This document shows positions 734 through 7,275 of a stretch of 40,414 bases of DNA, piece by piece. The notes beneath the pieces are model-generated. The model did no database searches. It was not told where the DNA came from and saw nothing but the letters and a program-made list of their open reading frames with translations. The position numbers and the translations under genes were made by a program. The stretch comes from Promethearchaeota archaeon (lineage in GTDB: Archaea; Asgardarchaeota; Lokiarchaeia; Sigyniarchaeales; SOKP01), in assembly GCA_016839915.1 (NCBI GenBank), contig JAEOTH010000190.1:1-40414 (forward strand). The letters are read 5' to 3'. Every line of letters starts with the position of its first letter. The first letter of the stretch is position 1.

Positions 734-2056
734 ATGCTAGAATTTAAAGTTAATAGGTTTATTACACTAAAACTGGAAAAAAATAAAACTGTAATCTATA
801 TCAAGGATGAAGAATTTATACAATGTAAATATTTATTGATTGAGATTCCAAGAGATACTATTAGTAATTCTGATGAATTTATATCTATTGATGATGCTCT
901 AGAAAAAATAAACAATGATCCAAAAGAAAATGGCTTCATTAAACATATGATTTCTCCCGAAGAAGAATTTATAGGTCATTGTTCTAATTTGCAAGCTTGG
1001 TATGAAAATGGATATGATACTTGCTTACTTCATACAAATATAGCATTCCCTTTACTTAAAAAACTCACAGAAGTTGGAGATCTTAAGGCAAAAAAAATAT
1101 TCAAAGAAGAAATCTTTAAAAGAATATTAAATGGTAATGATAATACACTTTATTTTTTAACCTTAAACGAGTTTATTTTTCAATTGAGAGACGAAGAGTT
1201 AATCATTCTCTTCGAGACCCTTAATTCTAACCAAAAAAACAGACTAGAGAGAATTATTATCGATGAGCTAATTAAAAATCCATATAGAGATAAGTACAAA
1301 AGAGATTTATACGAAATACTAACATACTTAGATAAAAAAGTTGCAATCAATTTACCAAACATCGAATTTCAAAATGAAAAATTTTTCCTTAATGGTGATA
1401 AATTAGATTTGACAAGAAAGAGAAAAAAATCACGAATAATATCAATTTCAGAAATTTTAGGATTAAATATGTTAAACAATTTAAAATCTCTAACTATTAA
1501 AGACCATTCTCTTTTCAGTATAGACAATCTGGAAATGTTATCATCTCTAGAAACTCTGGACCTTAGTAGAAATAAAATTGAGAAAATATCAGGATTAAAC
1601 AAATGCACTAAAATAAAAAAGCTTAATCTTAATAATAATAAAATTAAAGAAATTAACAATATTAATTATATTAAATACTTAGAATACTTAGATCTAAGTC
1701 AAAATGAAATAAATGAGATCGACGGGTTGGATCATCTTAAACATCTTCAAACATTACGCTTAAACGGAAATAATATCAAAAAAATTGAAGGTTTAGATAA
1801 TTTGCCAAACTTGACAATATTAAATTTAGCAAATAATAATATCAAAAAAATTGAAGGTTTAGATAATTTGCCAAACTTGACAATATTAAATTTAGCAAAT
1901 AATAATATCAAAAAAATTGAAGGTTTAGATAATTTGCCAAACTTGAAAACTTTAAATGTATATGGAAATAAAAATGTCGAAGGTGTGTTTAGGAAATTTA
2001 TGTATGATGGACAAATGTATATAAAACTCAGTAAAAAATATATAAACTCACATTAA
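734..2056 (+). CDS. Leucine-rich repeat protein (SDS22-like), Lokiarchaeota-type N-terminal domain
   Basis: The protein has 440 residues. Residues 1-240 form a non-repeat domain with the motif GHCSNLQAWYENGYDT followed by LLHTNIAFPLLKKLTEVGD. From memory, this arrangement is typical of an LRR family expanded in Lokiarchaeota. Residues 250-425 hold about eight 22-residue repeats of the SDS22 type, with pattern LxxLxLxxNxIxxIxGLxxL. Such solenoids usually bind proteins; no enzymatic motif is seen. Repeats 5-7 are encoded by nearly identical 66-nt DNA units, which points to recent tandem duplication. The start is ATG, and the gene is followed by the 5S-like element on the opposite strand. Confidence 0.85.
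   Translation: MLEFKVNRFITLKLEKNKTVIYIKDEEFIQCKYLLIEIPRDTISNSDEFISIDDALEKINNDPKENGFIKHMISPEEEFIGHCSNLQAWYENGYDTCLLHTNIAFPLLKKLTEVGDLKAKKIFKEEIFKRILNGNDNTLYFLTLNEFIFQLRDEELIILFETLNSNQKNRLERIIIDELIKNPYRDKYKRDLYEILTYLDKKVAINLPNIEFQNEKFFLNGDKLDLTRKRKKSRIISISEILGLNMLNNLKSLTIKDHSLFSIDNLEMLSSLETLDLSRNKIEKISGLNKCTKIKKLNLNNNKIKEINNINYIKYLEYLDLSQNEINEIDGLDHLKHLQTLRLNGNNIKKIEGLDNLPNLTILNLANNNIKKIEGLDNLPNLTILNLANNNIKKIEGLDNLPNLKTLNVYGNKNVEGVFRKFMYDGQMYIKLSKKYINSH
1769..1946 (+). repeat. Exact 66-nt tandem repeats inside the LRR gene
   Basis: Units at 1769-1834 and 1835-1900 are identical at the DNA level, and a third copy is identical from 1901 to about 1946 before diverging. Each unit encodes exactly one 22-residue LRR (begins NNIKKIEGLDNLPNL). 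Identity at synonymous positions indicates very recent duplication or gene conversion. Collapse or expansion during assembly is also possible. Confidence 0.95.
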
Positions 2057-2224
2057 AATGATTCCGGGTTCCCGAGTAACTCGGAAAACAAAATACTTTT
2101 CGGATGGGACCGGGTATTTTCCTTGTATGCCATGACCGTAAGCAAACTTACAGTTTGTAGTTTCCCATAGACCGCAACTACAGTACTATCTACAACGCTA
2201 CACAAGTTTAACTTCCGGCATTTT
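2055..2224 (-). other. Possible bulge-helix-bulge joining the ends of the permuted 5S precursor
   Basis: On the minus strand the 5' flank AAAATG (2224-2219) pairs with CATTTT (2060-2055). CCGG (2218-2215) pairs with CCGG (2067-2064). Each CCGG is followed by an unpaired trinucleotide, AAG (2214-2212) and AAT (2063-2061). This is the geometry cut by archaeal splicing endonuclease. Cutting after the second base of each bulge and joining the inner ends would give GAACCCGGAAGTTAAAC, the standard 5S loop C/helix III sequence. The joined product would keep about 29 extra bases in loop C. CCGG is self-complementary, so the central helix alone is weak evidence. Confidence 0.5.
2099..2220 (-). rRNA. 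Circularly permuted 5S ribosomal RNA
   Basis: On the minus strand, 2218-2152 reads as the 3' half of an archaeal 5S rRNA: CCGGAAGTTAAAC, TAGCG, AGTACTGTAG and TATGGGAAAC appear in the standard order and spacing. It runs straight into the 5' half at 2148-2099: CTTACGGTCATGGC, GGAAAATACCCGG and TCCCATCCGAA. The native ends are joined by a GTA loop (2151-2149) closing helix I, CAAACT (2157-2152) with AGTTTG (2148-2143). Helix II pairs TACAAG with CTTGTG. Helix III pairs CCGG at 2113-2110 with CCGG at 2218-2215. The new ends fall in loop C, and the span of about 121 nt matches a normal 5S. The GC content is well above the flanks. The exact ends are inferred. Confidence 0.88.
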
Positions 2225-2234
2225 AAGTGAGTTA

Positions 2235-3107: not shown

Positions 3108-5276
3108 TCATATTTCTTTAGCAACACGAGAAAACTTCTTTAAACCTTTGTATAGAGCAAAAACGGAAATTCCTACAACTGCAATAACAATTATAAAAGA
3201 TGCTATGAAAATATAATCAAGTAATGGAGCAGGTATTAAAAGATTAAATATAGAATCTTGAAATATAATTGTATTGTTCGCATAATCCCTCGCAGCAAAC
3301 AAATAGGAATATTCACCAGGAATTAATTTTTTTGAGTTAATGACAAATACTTCTTTATTCTCTTCAATGCCATTATATGAGCCATAACATAACCAAGTAG
3401 TAAAATTGGATTTGGATAAAATTATGAATGTAGATTCTATCCCGGAATAATTATCATGTGTTTCCGCTGTAAATGTTATATTAACTGATGTTGAAGGATT
3501 TTCAGGATTATGAACTACTCCAATTAGCTGAGGTGAAATATCATCTGGAAGAGTAGTAAAATTAAAATGGGATTTAATCAAGTTATGACCTGTAATCGTA
3601 ACATTATAAAACTCATTTTCTTGAGCGGGAAGCCGAAAACTTGCAAGACCATTCTCATCAGCATACGCAGTATGATATTTTCCATCAGATGCTTCTAAAT
3701 GAACACGTGCATAAGGAATAATATTACTATCAATATCTTTTATATAAATTGACACTAACTGGCCTTCATAGATATTTTCAGTAAAGGGATTTAAAACTGG
3801 TTTTGGAATATCAGTATAAACATCAACTTCTGGATCTCCTAAAAGGCAATACGTTAGGAGTTGTTTGCGTTCGAAATCTAGATAAGTTGCTCCCTGAGTT
3901 AATAAATCTCCTATCATTATTCCTGTTGTATAATATTCGCTATTGATGTATGAAGTTTTAGAATCATATAATGCTCGTCCTTGCTGAAATTTTTTATTAA
4001 TAAAAAATTCTTCCCAAAAATATTTAGCATTGCCTCTATTTACAGCACCAAGGCTAGTATCGTCTAAATAATACCACGTTACCCTTAAACCACCTATATA
4101 CCCTATCGCTCCGGCATTTTGCCTTTTTATTAAATATTCTCCTATACTATTGTCATTAAAATCATAAGAAGCTGTACTACAGGCATCCGCATATATCAAT
4201 GAAGGATTACCGGTATTTTCGATTTCCTTTGCATCTCCATTAGTATAAATTGTGCCAACTCTATCAGCATACACCCAGGGTGATCCATGGCCCGCAAAAA
4301 TAACTGTCGAATAACTATTATTGATTTCTCTTTTAAAACTTGCCGCAGTTAATGGTTCTTTGGGATCTGGAGGAGTATAATAGGTTGATCTCCATAGGTG
4401 TGTAAAGTTCATCTCTGATGCTACATAATTCTGCCATATATAAGTAGTTAATCTTGATTCATCTTCTCCATCTGGAGGCGCTTGAAAAGTAGTATCGGAG
4501 ATACCTCCAGCGAGGAGCATTCTGTTCATCCAATCACCAATTTCTGGATTAGTTTCATATTTTAGTGTTTTATTTACCATGATTCCAAGCTCATTCGCAT
4601 TGCTTGCTGGAAATCTTCCTACATATACTTCAGGATCCCAAGATATTTCATCTAGACCATATGAGTTATCTTGTGGCGCTTCCCCCCAATATTCATCTCC
4701 ATCACTGTTCCACGTACCATCTAGGTCTGCATAATAATAATCTGTAGGCTTAAGATACTCACCACCAACGGTTTCGGTTCTTCCTTGTCCATATCTTAAA
4801 GCATCGGGGTTATAAACTTTCCTGATTGGAATTATGTCATTCTGAGCGTCTCCCGCTAAAAGAACCCACCTTATATTTTCTCTCTCGTAGTACCATTTAA
4901 TCATATTTCGAATTCTTTCTGCGTCATCAACTCCATAATATGAAGAAAAATTACTTAAAATTATTGTTTTAACACCTTTTTCATTCTTCCATTCCATCAA
5001 AGGTTTTACAGCATCAATAAAACTTTGATTATCTGGAGTGATAATTAACATTTCGATTTTAGGTCTGTACCAGGCATCATTAAGTGAAGTATAATCGATA
5101 TCTGGTAAAATAGACAGATTTACATCCAAATATGCATTAGATATTCTTACATTATTAAAGAGATTATTCTCTTCTGCATTTATGAAATATAAGGAAAAGC
5201 TTATATTAATTAGTGGAGAGAAGATTAATAAAAAAATTGAAAAGTAGATAAATTTTTTAGAAAAAAGTCTAACCAT
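3108..5276 (-). CDS. Gingipain-like cysteine protease (peptidase family C25), membrane-anchored
   Basis: The protein has 722 residues. An N-terminal hydrophobic signal segment lies at about residues 9-30. A C25 catalytic domain follows at about 50-490, with a His motif AGHGSPW near residue 328 and a Cys motif YADACSTASYD near residue 365; these match the His/Cys dyad of gingipain-type proteases. Two beta-sandwich regions follow: a carboxypeptidase-regulatory-like domain (PYARVHLEASDGKYHTAYAD) and a second sandwich. A C-terminal transmembrane helix lies at about 690-712, with a basic cytosolic end. It is probably exported and tethered outside the membrane, degrading or processing proteins. Asn-x-Ser/Thr sequons are frequent, as in archaeal surface proteins. 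The catalytic residues look intact. The start is ATG. Confidence 0.88.
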   Translation of the reverse strand: MVRLFSKKFIYFSIFLLIFSPLINISFSLYFINAEENNLFNNVRISNAYLDVNLSILPDIDYTSLNDAWYRPKIEMLIITPDNQSFIDAVKPLMEWKNEKGVKTIILSNFSSYYGVDDAERIRNMIKWYYERENIRWVLLAGDAQNDIIPIRKVYNPDALRYGQGRTETVGGEYLKPTDYYYADLDGTWNSDGDEYWGEAPQDNSYGLDEISWDPEVYVGRFPASNANELGIMVNKTLKYETNPEIGDWMNRMLLAGGISDTTFQAPPDGEDESRLTTYIWQNYVASEMNFTHLWRSTYYTPPDPKEPLTAASFKREINNSYSTVIFAGHGSPWVYADRVGTIYTNGDAKEIENTGNPSLIYADACSTASYDFNDNSIGEYLIKRQNAGAIGYIGGLRVTWYYLDDTSLGAVNRGNAKYFWEEFFINKKFQQGRALYDSKTSYINSEYYTTGIMIGDLLTQGATYLDFERKQLLTYCLLGDPEVDVYTDIPKPVLNPFTENIYEGQLVSIYIKDIDSNIIPYARVHLEASDGKYHTAYADENGLASFRLPAQENEFYNVTITGHNLIKSHFNFTTLPDDISPQLIGVVHNPENPSTSVNITFTAETHDNYSGIESTFIILSKSNFTTWLCYGSYNGIEENKEVFVINSKKLIPGEYSYLFAARDYANNTIIFQDSIFNLLIPAPLLDYIFIASFIIVIAVVGISVFALYKGLKKFSRVAKEI

Positions 5277-5721: not shown

Positions 5722-7275
5722 ATGTCATATAATTTAACGGATGTTGGTGGCATTGGAAAAGCAACAGCAGAAAAAATAAAAGCAGCAGGAATAGATTCTG
5801 TAGAAAAATTAGCTGGATCCAATCCTGATGATTTAATTAAGTTAAAGATTAAAGGTGTAGGTGCTGCGACTGCAGAGAAATATATTACCAATGCAAAGAA
5901 ATTACTTGAAGCAATTAATACTCAAGAAAAACCAAAGTCTCCATCAAAATCTACAGCTGAAATAGAACCAAAAACAAAAGCTAAACCAAAAATTAAATTA
6001 AAACCTTCCAATATTAAAGAATTGGTAAAGAGTCAAGCAGAATGTAATATTGGATTAGTTGGACATGTAGATCACGGTAAAACAACATTAGTAAAAGCAC
6101 TTACTGGAGATTGGACAGATAGACATTCAGAAGAGCAAGAAAGAGGGATCTCAATAAAATTAGGATATTCTAATGCTACTATCTTATATTGTCCTAAGTG
6201 TGATAAGTATATAACATATTACTTATCAGAAAAATCAAGAAAAAAAGGTAAATCTCATTATTTATGTCCAGATTGTAAAGAACAATTAGATTTTAAAAGA
6301 AATGTCTCATTTGTTGATGCTCCTGGACATGAAATATTAATGGCAACAATGCTAAGTGGAGCATCATTAATGGATGGTGCTTGTCTTTTGATCGCAGCAG
6401 ATGAGGAATGTCCTCAACCGCAAACTAGAGAACATTTAGAAGCATTGCACATTGCCGGTATACAAAATATTATCATCATACAAAATAAAATTGATGCTGT
6501 ATCGCGAGAGCAAGCAAAGAAGAACTATCAACAAATAAAGGATTTTATTAAGGATACAATTGCCGAAAACGCTCCAATCATCCCAGTTTCAGCAGTATTT
6601 GAAGCAAATATGAATCTAATTTTAAGAGCATTTGAAGAAATTATCCCCTCACCAGAACTTAGAGAAGGAGACTTTCAGTTCTTAATCGCACGATCTTTTG
6701 ATATTAATCGACCTGGAAAACAAATAAATGAGTTAAAAGGTGGTGTTATAGGCGGATCCGTCTTAAAAGGGAAAATTAATGTTGGCGATAAAATTGAAAT
6801 TCGTCCTGGGTTAAGAATAAAAGATAAGTATATCCCGTTAAGATCTACTGTTGTTAGCATCAGTCAAGGTAACAATCTTTTGGATAATGCAAAGCCAGGA
6901 GGTCTTATAGGCTTAGGAACTAAATTGGATCCTGCTTTAACAAAGGGTGATCACTTAATAGGGCATTTAGTGGGAAAACCAGAGACTTTACCTGATGTAC
7001 TCGATGAAATAGAAATAAAAGTAAATCTTTTGGATCGAGTAATTGGCACTGAACAAATGCTTAGAGTACATTCAGTTAAGCATAATGAGAAATTATTATT
7101 AGTCGTCGGAACAGAAAAAACAGGTGGAACAGTTACAAAAATTTTAAAAAATACTGTTATCGTAAAGCTAAATCCCCCTATTTGTCCTCCAGAAAATTTT
7201 ATTTTTGCAATTTCGAGAATTATAAATAGACGTTATAGATTAATTGGTTATGGAGAAAGAGTAAATCATAATTAG
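5722..7275 (+). CDS. eif2g: Translation initiation factor aIF2 subunit gamma with N-terminal helix-hairpin-helix domain
   Basis: The protein has 517 residues. Residues 1-65 form a RadA/Rad51-N-terminus-like helix-hairpin-helix domain (GGIGKATAEKIKAAGI, then KIKGVGAATAEKY), and a Lys/Pro-rich linker runs to about 100. The rest is a full aIF2 gamma: G1 GHVDHGKTT (about 116), switch 1 RGISIKLGY, a zinc knuckle CPKC/CPDC, G3 DAPGHE, G4 NKID, then domains II and III. The factor delivers initiator Met-tRNA to the small ribosomal subunit. Archaeal gamma subunits are normally about 410 residues, so the HhH part is an extra. It is not SelB, because the G3/zinc layout and RHSEEQERGISI match aIF2 gamma. 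Confidence 0.93.
   Translation: MSYNLTDVGGIGKATAEKIKAAGIDSVEKLAGSNPDDLIKLKIKGVGAATAEKYITNAKKLLEAINTQEKPKSPSKSTAEIEPKTKAKPKIKLKPSNIKELVKSQAECNIGLVGHVDHGKTTLVKALTGDWTDRHSEEQERGISIKLGYSNATILYCPKCDKYITYYLSEKSRKKGKSHYLCPDCKEQLDFKRNVSFVDAPGHEILMATMLSGASLMDGACLLIAADEECPQPQTREHLEALHIAGIQNIIIIQNKIDAVSREQAKKNYQQIKDFIKDTIAENAPIIPVSAVFEANMNLILRAFEEIIPSPELREGDFQFLIARSFDINRPGKQINELKGGVIGGSVLKGKINVGDKIEIRPGLRIKDKYIPLRSTVVSISQGNNLLDNAKPGGLIGLGTKLDPALTKGDHLIGHLVGKPETLPDVLDEIEIKVNLLDRVIGTEQMLRVHSVKHNEKLLLVVGTEKTGGTVTKILKNTVIVKLNPPICPPENFIFAISRIINRRYRLIGYGERVNHN

Follow-up and report, generated by a model that had tools for sequence, protein, structure and literature searches.

The permuted 5S rRNA locus

The window, by which we mean the whole analyzed stretch of 40,414 nucleotides, carries on its minus strand a 5S rRNA gene whose halves are swapped, located between the open reading frames at 2268-2789 and 734-2056. 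Read from the letters, the motifs on that strand run CCGGAAGUUAAAC, AGUACUG, GGGAAAC, helix I, CGGUCAUGG, and GGUCCCAUCCGAA. The 3' half comes first and extends from GUUAAACUUGUGUAGCG through AGUACUG and GGGAAAC to ACUGUAAG, and the 5' half, CUUACGGUCAUGGCAUACAAGGAAAAUACCCGGUCCCAUCCGAA, follows a UUUG loop that closes helix I. Helix I consists of 8 bp between ACUGUAAG (2154-2147) and CUUACGGU (2142-2135), and its UUUG cap (2146-2143) fuses the native ends into a hairpin. The predicted new ends, at 2212 and 2062, lie on the 3' side of helix III/loop B (CCGGAA^GUU), and the flanking stems extend to 2233 and 2045. The features are listed below in minus-strand order; A1 is an alignment of 21 permuted loci, R1 is the covariance model built from them, and BHB stands for bulge-helix-bulge.

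2219-2233, minus strand: 5' leader stem AACUCACUUAAAAUG, outer BHB helix; pairs with 2045-2060 (15 bp, one bulged U) in the precursor MFE fold
2212-2218, minus strand: 5' half of the BHB, with central-helix strand CCGG (2218-2215) and bulge AA^G (2214-2212), from the geometry scan
Between 2213 and 2212, minus strand: predicted 5' cut, the top of 4 matches in the geometry scan of the window
2147-2212, minus strand: 3' half of 5S, with the loop B 3' side, helix II 3' strand, helices IV/V, and helix I 3' strand, from the R1 match at 2108-2218, A1, and the ring MFE fold
2143-2146, minus strand: UUUG loop fusing the native 5' and 3' ends over helix I, from sequence reading; helix I covaries in A1
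2099-2142, minus strand: 5' half of 5S, with the 5' strands of helices I, II, and III and loop C up to CCGAA, from sequence reading, A1, and R1
2069-2098, minus strand: 30-nt loop C insert, a predicted BHB-type (HBh') intron, UCCG-AA^A ... CGGG-AA^C, from the profile gain on excision
2061-2068, minus strand: ring 3' end, with C, CCGG (2067-2064), bulge AA^U (2063-2061), and a predicted cut at 2062/2061, from the geometry scan
2045-2060, minus strand: 3' trailer stem CAUUUUAAUGUGAGUU, outer BHB helix, from the precursor MFE fold
2062-2212, minus strand: predicted circularized RNA, 151 nt with the insert and 121 nt without it, from BHB geometry and insert excision

The original prediction, that an Asgard archaeon has a circularly permuted 5S gene here, is confirmed. 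The motif order is as claimed, and the arrangement recurs in more than 100 genomes, which argues that the locus did not arise by chance. Several particulars were revised. The native ends had been described as fused through a GTA loop, but the cap is UUUG on the 8-bp helix I; the new ends had been placed in loop C, but are predicted at 2212 and 2062; and the unit had been taken as 2099-2220, but the predicted ring is larger, spanning 2212-2062, with the 30-nt loop C insert included in its 151 nt. No circular product had been proposed, since neither the BHB nor the insert had been seen.

The usual spacing between a TATA box and the transcription start is about 25 nt. The best TATA-like heptamer in the window, TTTATAT, starts 29 nt before the bulge, and a weaker element, TTTAATTAA, was seen by eye near -48. 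A TATA box had been reported just upstream of the gene, but at that spacing TTTATAT lies too near the gene for the precursor stem to fit, and the TATA element of this locus is ambiguous. In families other than f1, the best heptamer lay 40 to 60 nt before the bulge in 19 of 26 distinct upstream regions, counted with no shuffle control; given the spacing above, this position is consistent with a leader of about 20 to 25 nt that carries the stem. The positions were scattered in f1.

Three other genes of the window were noted. The one at 734-2056 (plus strand), whose end adjoins the 3' stem of the 5S precursor, encodes, through near-identical DNA repeats, a leucine-rich repeat protein (Pfam LRR_4). 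The gene at 5722-7275 (plus strand) encodes an EF-Tu-like GTPase whose C-terminal domain is that of eIF2-gamma and whose N-terminal part has a helix-hairpin-helix match, a combination that we judged unusual, and 3108-5276 (minus strand) encodes a 722-amino-acid Peptidase family C25 protein.

Permuted and canonical 5S genes across the phylum

Rfam searches of the window gave no call at the gathering threshold and no match at E of ≤1 within 1700-2600. With RF00001 over the whole genome at E of ≤10, the sole match was the permuted locus, at 16.9 bits and an E value of 1.53 against a gathering cutoff of 38, so that the gene as written does not qualify as a match to the family. A weak or absent score is expected of a permuted gene, since its halves are swapped, and the swapped order would explain how 5S has escaped standard searches in these genomes. 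Model R1 gave the window 117.9 bits, the window being one of the 21 sequences on which R1 was trained. The 200-nt precursor folded better than all of 200 dinucleotide shuffles (z = -3.91).

R1 itself came from a search of 58 genomes with RF00001, which returned many weak matches; 31 loci were inspected, and the 21 that read as permuted 5S were aligned as A1. RNAalifold on A1 predicted three helices, in our reading helices I, IV, and V; of their 17 predicted pairs, 13 show changes on both sides. At E of ≤0.1, R1 matched 111 of 227 genomes of the phylum, 107 of which were judged permuted, and RF00001 exceeded its cutoff in 64 of the 227, both counts being lower bounds because large searches apply stricter filters. 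The permuted genes fall into 18 families (f1, f3 to f7, f9 to f13, f15, f17 to f20, f22, and f25), and the RF00001 matches mainly into families f2, f8, f21, f27, and f28, with further ones in G070, G087, and G089 (f15 and f16). R1 matches of 23.5 to 39.2 bits in G040, G042, G044, and G178 overlapped canonical genes and were dropped from the permuted count. Among the 45 genomes with completeness of 90% or more and contamination of 5% or less, R1 matched 27 and RF00001 matched 19; read by eye, 25 of these genomes were permuted, 15 were canonical, and 5 were neither.

The same gene order was also found in a pattern scan of 84,980 named species, which gave 69 matches, 55 of them also matching R1 at E of <0.001. 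One of these, in a Thermoplasmata record (30.9 bits with R1), reads as a canonical 5S gene with a chance motif after it and was dropped. The remaining 54 permuted loci are in 53 genomes, 52 with Asgard names and one named only "archaeon": 41 are Lokiarchaeota/Lokiarchaeia, 5 are Heimdallarchaeota, 2 each are Jordarchaeum and Baldrarchaeota, and 1 each is Odinarchaeia and Kariarchaeota. Many of these loci are on the same contigs as in the 227-genome search, and the two counts are not additive. The pattern was derived from Asgard sequences, so the scan says little about other phyla.

The complete genome record of Heimdallarchaeum endolithica (CP084167.1), from a genus in which the genome authors were unable to find 5S (PMC8813620), has two permuted loci, L090 and L108, both matching the pattern and R1. 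The strict BHB scan described below gave a restoring motif for L108 and none for L090, where a hairpin seems to break up the outer stem. A second, partial permuted copy lies near the first in G111 (L181; R1 matches at 151-255 and 308-392). Family f2, a member of the window's own order, has canonical 5S genes (L006; G042:C1:1399892-1400758), with three in a row in G042, and a return from the permuted to the canonical form by duplication is possible there.

We also searched for a standard 5S gene in genomes with the permuted one. None was found in the window's own genome, in which RF00001 at E of ≤10 gave no second candidate. That assembly (G000, a MAG listed as 93.94% complete) also gave no archaeal 23S match, which makes its lack of a canonical 5S weak evidence when taken alone. 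In 30 further genomes of the 107, picked for completeness or few contigs, RF00001 at E of ≤1 matched 30 times, in 24 of the genomes; every match fell on the permuted gene, and none exceeded the cutoff. Outside that set, 3 of the 107 (G013, G098, and G145) have a second, canonical-type RF00001 match over the cutoff on another contig; those in G013 and G098 read by eye as bacterial type and were taken as contaminating contigs. A 23S search of nine permuted genomes found a full 23S over the cutoff in two. One is G056, a single 1.42-Mb contig that is 98% complete and in which 5S matches at E of ≤10 occur only at the permuted gene (it is likely Odinarchaeia, as its genus-mate G174 shares match coordinates and score with the Odinarchaeia record L070); the other is G138, in which the same holds for RF00001 matches at E of ≤1. 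G004 gave only a weak 53-nt 23S match, and the other six gave none, four of them being single contigs, in a search that also missed one of four archaeal controls. With 23S over the cutoff in only two of nine, many of these assemblies could have lost a canonical 5S along with a linked 23S that was not assembled.

Bulge-helix-bulge motifs, ring lengths, and inserts

In archaeal pre-tRNA introns, a BHB is read as helix, central helix, and bulge, with the cut after the second bulge base, and we applied this orientation and rule to the ends of the permuted gene. The motif is also described in PMC4731332. In the window it reads 5' UUAAAAUG-CCGG-AA^G ... CCGG-AA^U-CAUUUUAA 3', with a 4-bp central helix (CCGG/CCGG), 3-nt bulges at both ends, and an uninterrupted 8-bp outer helix that reaches 15 bp with one bulged U (2233-2219 with 2060-2045). 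Both the outer helix and CCGG/CCGG are present in the precursor MFE fold. When both bulges are cut after the second nucleotide and the inner ends are joined, the junction reads CCCGGAA+GUUAAAC, which is the canonical sequence. The locus therefore shows the features of BHB-processed permuted RNA genes, namely reversed halves and a 4-bp helix with 3-nt bulges that restores the RNA when cut.

Motifs were picked in the scan on geometry alone: the central helix had to have 4 bp with no more than one G-U pair, the bulges 3 nt each, and the outer helix 3 bp or more. Restoration was scored as recovery of the canonical motif and spacing after joining, with a motif that we wrote ourselves. The scan covered 103 of the 107 permuted genomes, leaving out G003 and G061, with matches at contig ends, and G023 and G174. 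A strict restoring BHB was found in 77 of the 103 loci and was the best-scoring match in 74. Shuffling the flanks while keeping the central helix and bulges gave means of 7.6 restoring and 4.3 top-ranked motifs, versus the 77 and 74 observed (101 loci, 20 rounds; G103 and G104 were dropped for a short 3' flank). Over 56 distinct flank sets, 5.36 of 6 outer-helix pairs formed, versus 2.71 when flanks were exchanged between families and 3.37 within families; at positions 4 to 7, past the three pairs required for selection, 2.91 of 4 formed, versus 1.68 with exchanged flanks. The central helix shows compensated changes among CCGG/CCGG, CUGG/CCAG, CGUG/CACG, and CUGG/UCAG. By our own reading, the 26 loci that lack a strict restoring BHB comprise 15 with a relaxed one (a mismatch, a short outer helix, one extra spacing nucleotide, or a site beyond the range first scanned), 2 truncated at contig ends, and 9 with none recognizable in either the strict or the relaxed scan (G041, G051, G073, G095, G100, G137, G143, G148, and G158).

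The opening point of the 5S is not fixed among the permuted loci. The commonest is CGGAA^GUU. Five genomes of the window's own genus (G002, G004, G010, G014, and G016) are opened in loop C instead, as CCGGUC^ ... ^CCAUCCGAAC. G031 of another genus is also opened in loop C, and G038 is opened in loop B, as AUCGGAA^ ... ^ACACCCG. Each alternative site coincides with a BHB whose ligation brings back the canonical order.

The rings predicted for the 77 loci fall into two length classes, 115 to 129 nt (56 loci) and 149 to 180 nt (21 loci), with peaks at 119 to 125 (54 of 77) and 149 to 155 (20 loci). Scores were taken on a profile of 31 canonical 5S genes from the same phylum. Nineteen of the 21 long rings were tested, and excising the best BHB-like intron added 5.9 to 26.7 bits in 16 of them; in 50 short rings with such intron candidates, excision raised the score in none. 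The window is among the 16. Its insert, CCCAUCCGAA^(30 nt)^CCCGGAAG at 2098-2069, gives a gain of 24.4 bits and leaves a 121-nt ring. The insert motif has a central helix (UCCG/CGGG), both bulges, and a 4-bp inner helix; with no outer helix pair it is of relaxed form. The insert resembles, and is predicted to be, a second BHB-type intron. Inserts in the helix IV region of L156 (G009) and L216 (G144) have outer and inner helices that are both at least 3 bp, and a BHB-like insert upstream of loop C in L159 (G047) has a 5-bp outer helix; these three are 29 to 32 nt long, and their removal raises the canonical score. Three further loci, L032 (G035), L209 (G022), and L208 (G139), carry about 30 inserted nucleotides in the linker of helix I; no BHB whose excision raised the score was found for these.

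On the canonical profile, the window ring gave no match in gene order, 15.8 bits after re-ordering, and 40.2 bits (15.8 + 24.4) after re-ordering and removal of the insert. Of the 77 joined rings, 72 could be re-ordered by script and 5 were dropped; the median scores of the 72 were 45.6 bits when re-ordered at helix I, 21.0 in gene order, 34.6 when cut at random, and 0 when shuffled. The median for random cuts indicates that part of the gain comes from ring closure and the remainder from the cut at helix I. A structure test was run on 46 distinct short rings without an insert, a set that by its definition does not include the window ring. The structure of canonical genes formed in 82% of the cells of the re-ordered rings, versus 30 to 45% when the rings were slid by 1 to 3 columns. 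By helix, it formed in 65% of cells for helix I (94% in canonical genes, the lower figure being due in part to rows cut off-center), 100% for helix III, and 88% for the helix IV/V arm. The test replaced a column-based reading of helix II on alignment A2, which was unclear from gap placement. Folded as a circle without its insert, the window ring forms the helix I hairpin, helix II, helix III, and the helix IV/V arm; the case for helix II rests on this fold, as the consensus of the structure test contains no helix II. Once its halves are re-ordered, the locus has the conserved sequence and structure of 5S rRNA.

A predicted circular 5S rRNA

The window's own genome encodes two EndA-family genes (contigs C157 and C81) and one RtcB (C25), the splicing machinery that a BHB calls for, together with a gene for uL18, which along with uL5 binds 5S in the 50S subunit. 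Heterotetrameric endonucleases are described as having the most relaxed BHB recognition (PMC4731332), and the two EndA-family proteins may form a pair of the heterotetrameric type. Our main reading, to which we assign a probability of about 0.85, is that the tRNA splicing endonuclease cuts the permuted transcript at the BHB and that a ligase, likely RtcB, closes it into a predicted circular 5S rRNA. From the sequence features we infer the following course of events. The 3' half would be transcribed ahead of the 5' half, and the flanks would pair into a stem with the 4-bp central helix between the 3-nt bulges. EndA would cut both bulges between the second and third nucleotides, and RtcB would likely join the inner ends into a ring, so that the 5S motif and its spacing become canonical again. 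Removal of the 30-nt insert from the window copy would leave the 121-nt ring, which would enter the 50S subunit and stay circular, with no reopening at helix I.

Three other accounts of the locus were weighed against circularization. The transcript might simply be trimmed at its new ends and work as a linear permuted molecule, the flanking stems being only processing stems. Mitochondrial mtPerm-5S works in this manner, and the nine loci with no recognized BHB would fit it. Permuted 5S rRNAs are also listed among natural circular permutations in the introduction of PMC10085705, which cites Valach 2014. However, trimming does not need what is seen in 77 of 103 loci, where cuts of BHB geometry restore the canonical loop B or loop C, and this restoration occurs at three different permutation sites (CGGAA^GUU, loop C, and loop B). 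We therefore regard a trimmed linear product as improbable. Nor do we give much credence to a route in which the ring is transient and a later cut in the helix I loop turns it into a linear 5S with the usual ends. The parallel would be permuted tRNA, whose precursor must be processed (PMC3218864) and whose transcripts are circularized and then cleaved to the standard form (PMC10085705). Against this, the helix I cap, which is of the UNCG type in 50 of 94 parsed loci and is UUUG, outside that type, in the window, is short and leaves little single strand to trim, which argues against reopening at the native ends; it also resembles the tetraloop that fuses the ends of an engineered circularly permuted 5S (PMC7283268).

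It is more improbable still that the locus is a pseudogene or relic and that the true 5S is canonical and missing from the assemblies. The 23S results lend that idea what support it has, as neither the window's own MAG nor most of its nine relatives gave a match and rRNA genes may thus be missing from the assemblies. However, the permuted gene is present in 107 of 227 genomes with helices that covary, and the two genomes in which 23S was found, G056 and G138, have 5S matches only at the permuted gene (at E of ≤10 and E of ≤1, respectively). The circular 5S reading is thus preferred.

A close precedent is the permuted SRP RNA of Thermoproteus, named for T. tenax and T. uzoniensis, which is circularized at a BHB into a circle shown by RNA-Seq (PMC4731332). 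The two systems share swapped halves, a canonical gene that was not identified, a BHB at the new ends, and a short leader; in both, ligation restores a conserved loop, and EndA and RtcB are the proposed machinery. Production of a circular 5S by EndA and RtcB, as for that SRP RNA, is on our analysis the most likely course. The Asgard case differs in that the RNA is 5S rRNA, that it extends over much of a phylum, and that its circle is so far a prediction.

Permuted 5S has a precedent in mtPerm-5S, the permuted mitochondrial 5S rRNA of Rfam family RF02547 (named in PMC5753348). It likewise is a 5S rRNA with fused native ends and new ends elsewhere. It is encoded in mitochondria, and we know of no BHB processing for it. 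The present locus does not belong to that family: RF02547 gave no match at E of ≤10 in the window's own genome, and the gene is on a contig of a 3.6-Mb assembly rather than in a mitochondrion.

Permuted tRNA genes, in which the 3' half is also encoded ahead of the 5' half, are processed at BHBs. They occur in Thermofilum pendens and a red alga (PMC3218864), and, unlike the ring proposed here, their product is a standard linear tRNA (PMC10085705). Archaeal pre-16S and pre-23S rRNAs are circularized via a BHB, and 23S is kept circular in ribosomes (PMC12918454 and PMC7758197); these too are circular rRNAs made by excision and ligation, but from unpermuted genes. According to PMC12918454, circularization in pure cultures affects 16S and 23S and does not extend to 5S. 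In Halobacterium and Sulfolobus, 5S-derived circular RNAs have been described, with the suggestion that circularization is part of 5S degradation (PMC12558985). As for whether a permuted 5S can serve a ribosome, Escherichia coli cells with an engineered circularly permuted 5S within 23S, and no free 5S, are viable (PMC7283268). There, as here, the native ends are joined by a 4-nt loop, and the engineered molecule was opened in loop C or D (PMC7283268); that construct is artificial and inserted into 23S, whereas the Asgard gene is natural and free-standing.

We found no published report of a permuted or circular 5S in archaea in the open-licence literature, preprints aside. Permuted 5S in mitochondria and BHB-made rings from permuted genes, in the case of SRP RNA, are already known. 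What appears to be new, within the same literature, is the combination of the two on an rRNA, in free-living cells and in much of a phylum.

Taken more broadly, we consider it more likely than not that the ribosomes of most Asgard lineages contain an endless, covalently closed circular 5S rRNA, made from a permuted gene able to carry splicing introns of 28 to 32 nt. The arrangement would then be old in the phylum, its opening point would have moved at least twice, and one family in the order of the window would have gone back to a canonical gene. Annotation pipelines gain a model that is able to find the missing 5S, and, if the circular reading is true, tRNA splicing enzymes serve an essential rRNA in these organisms.
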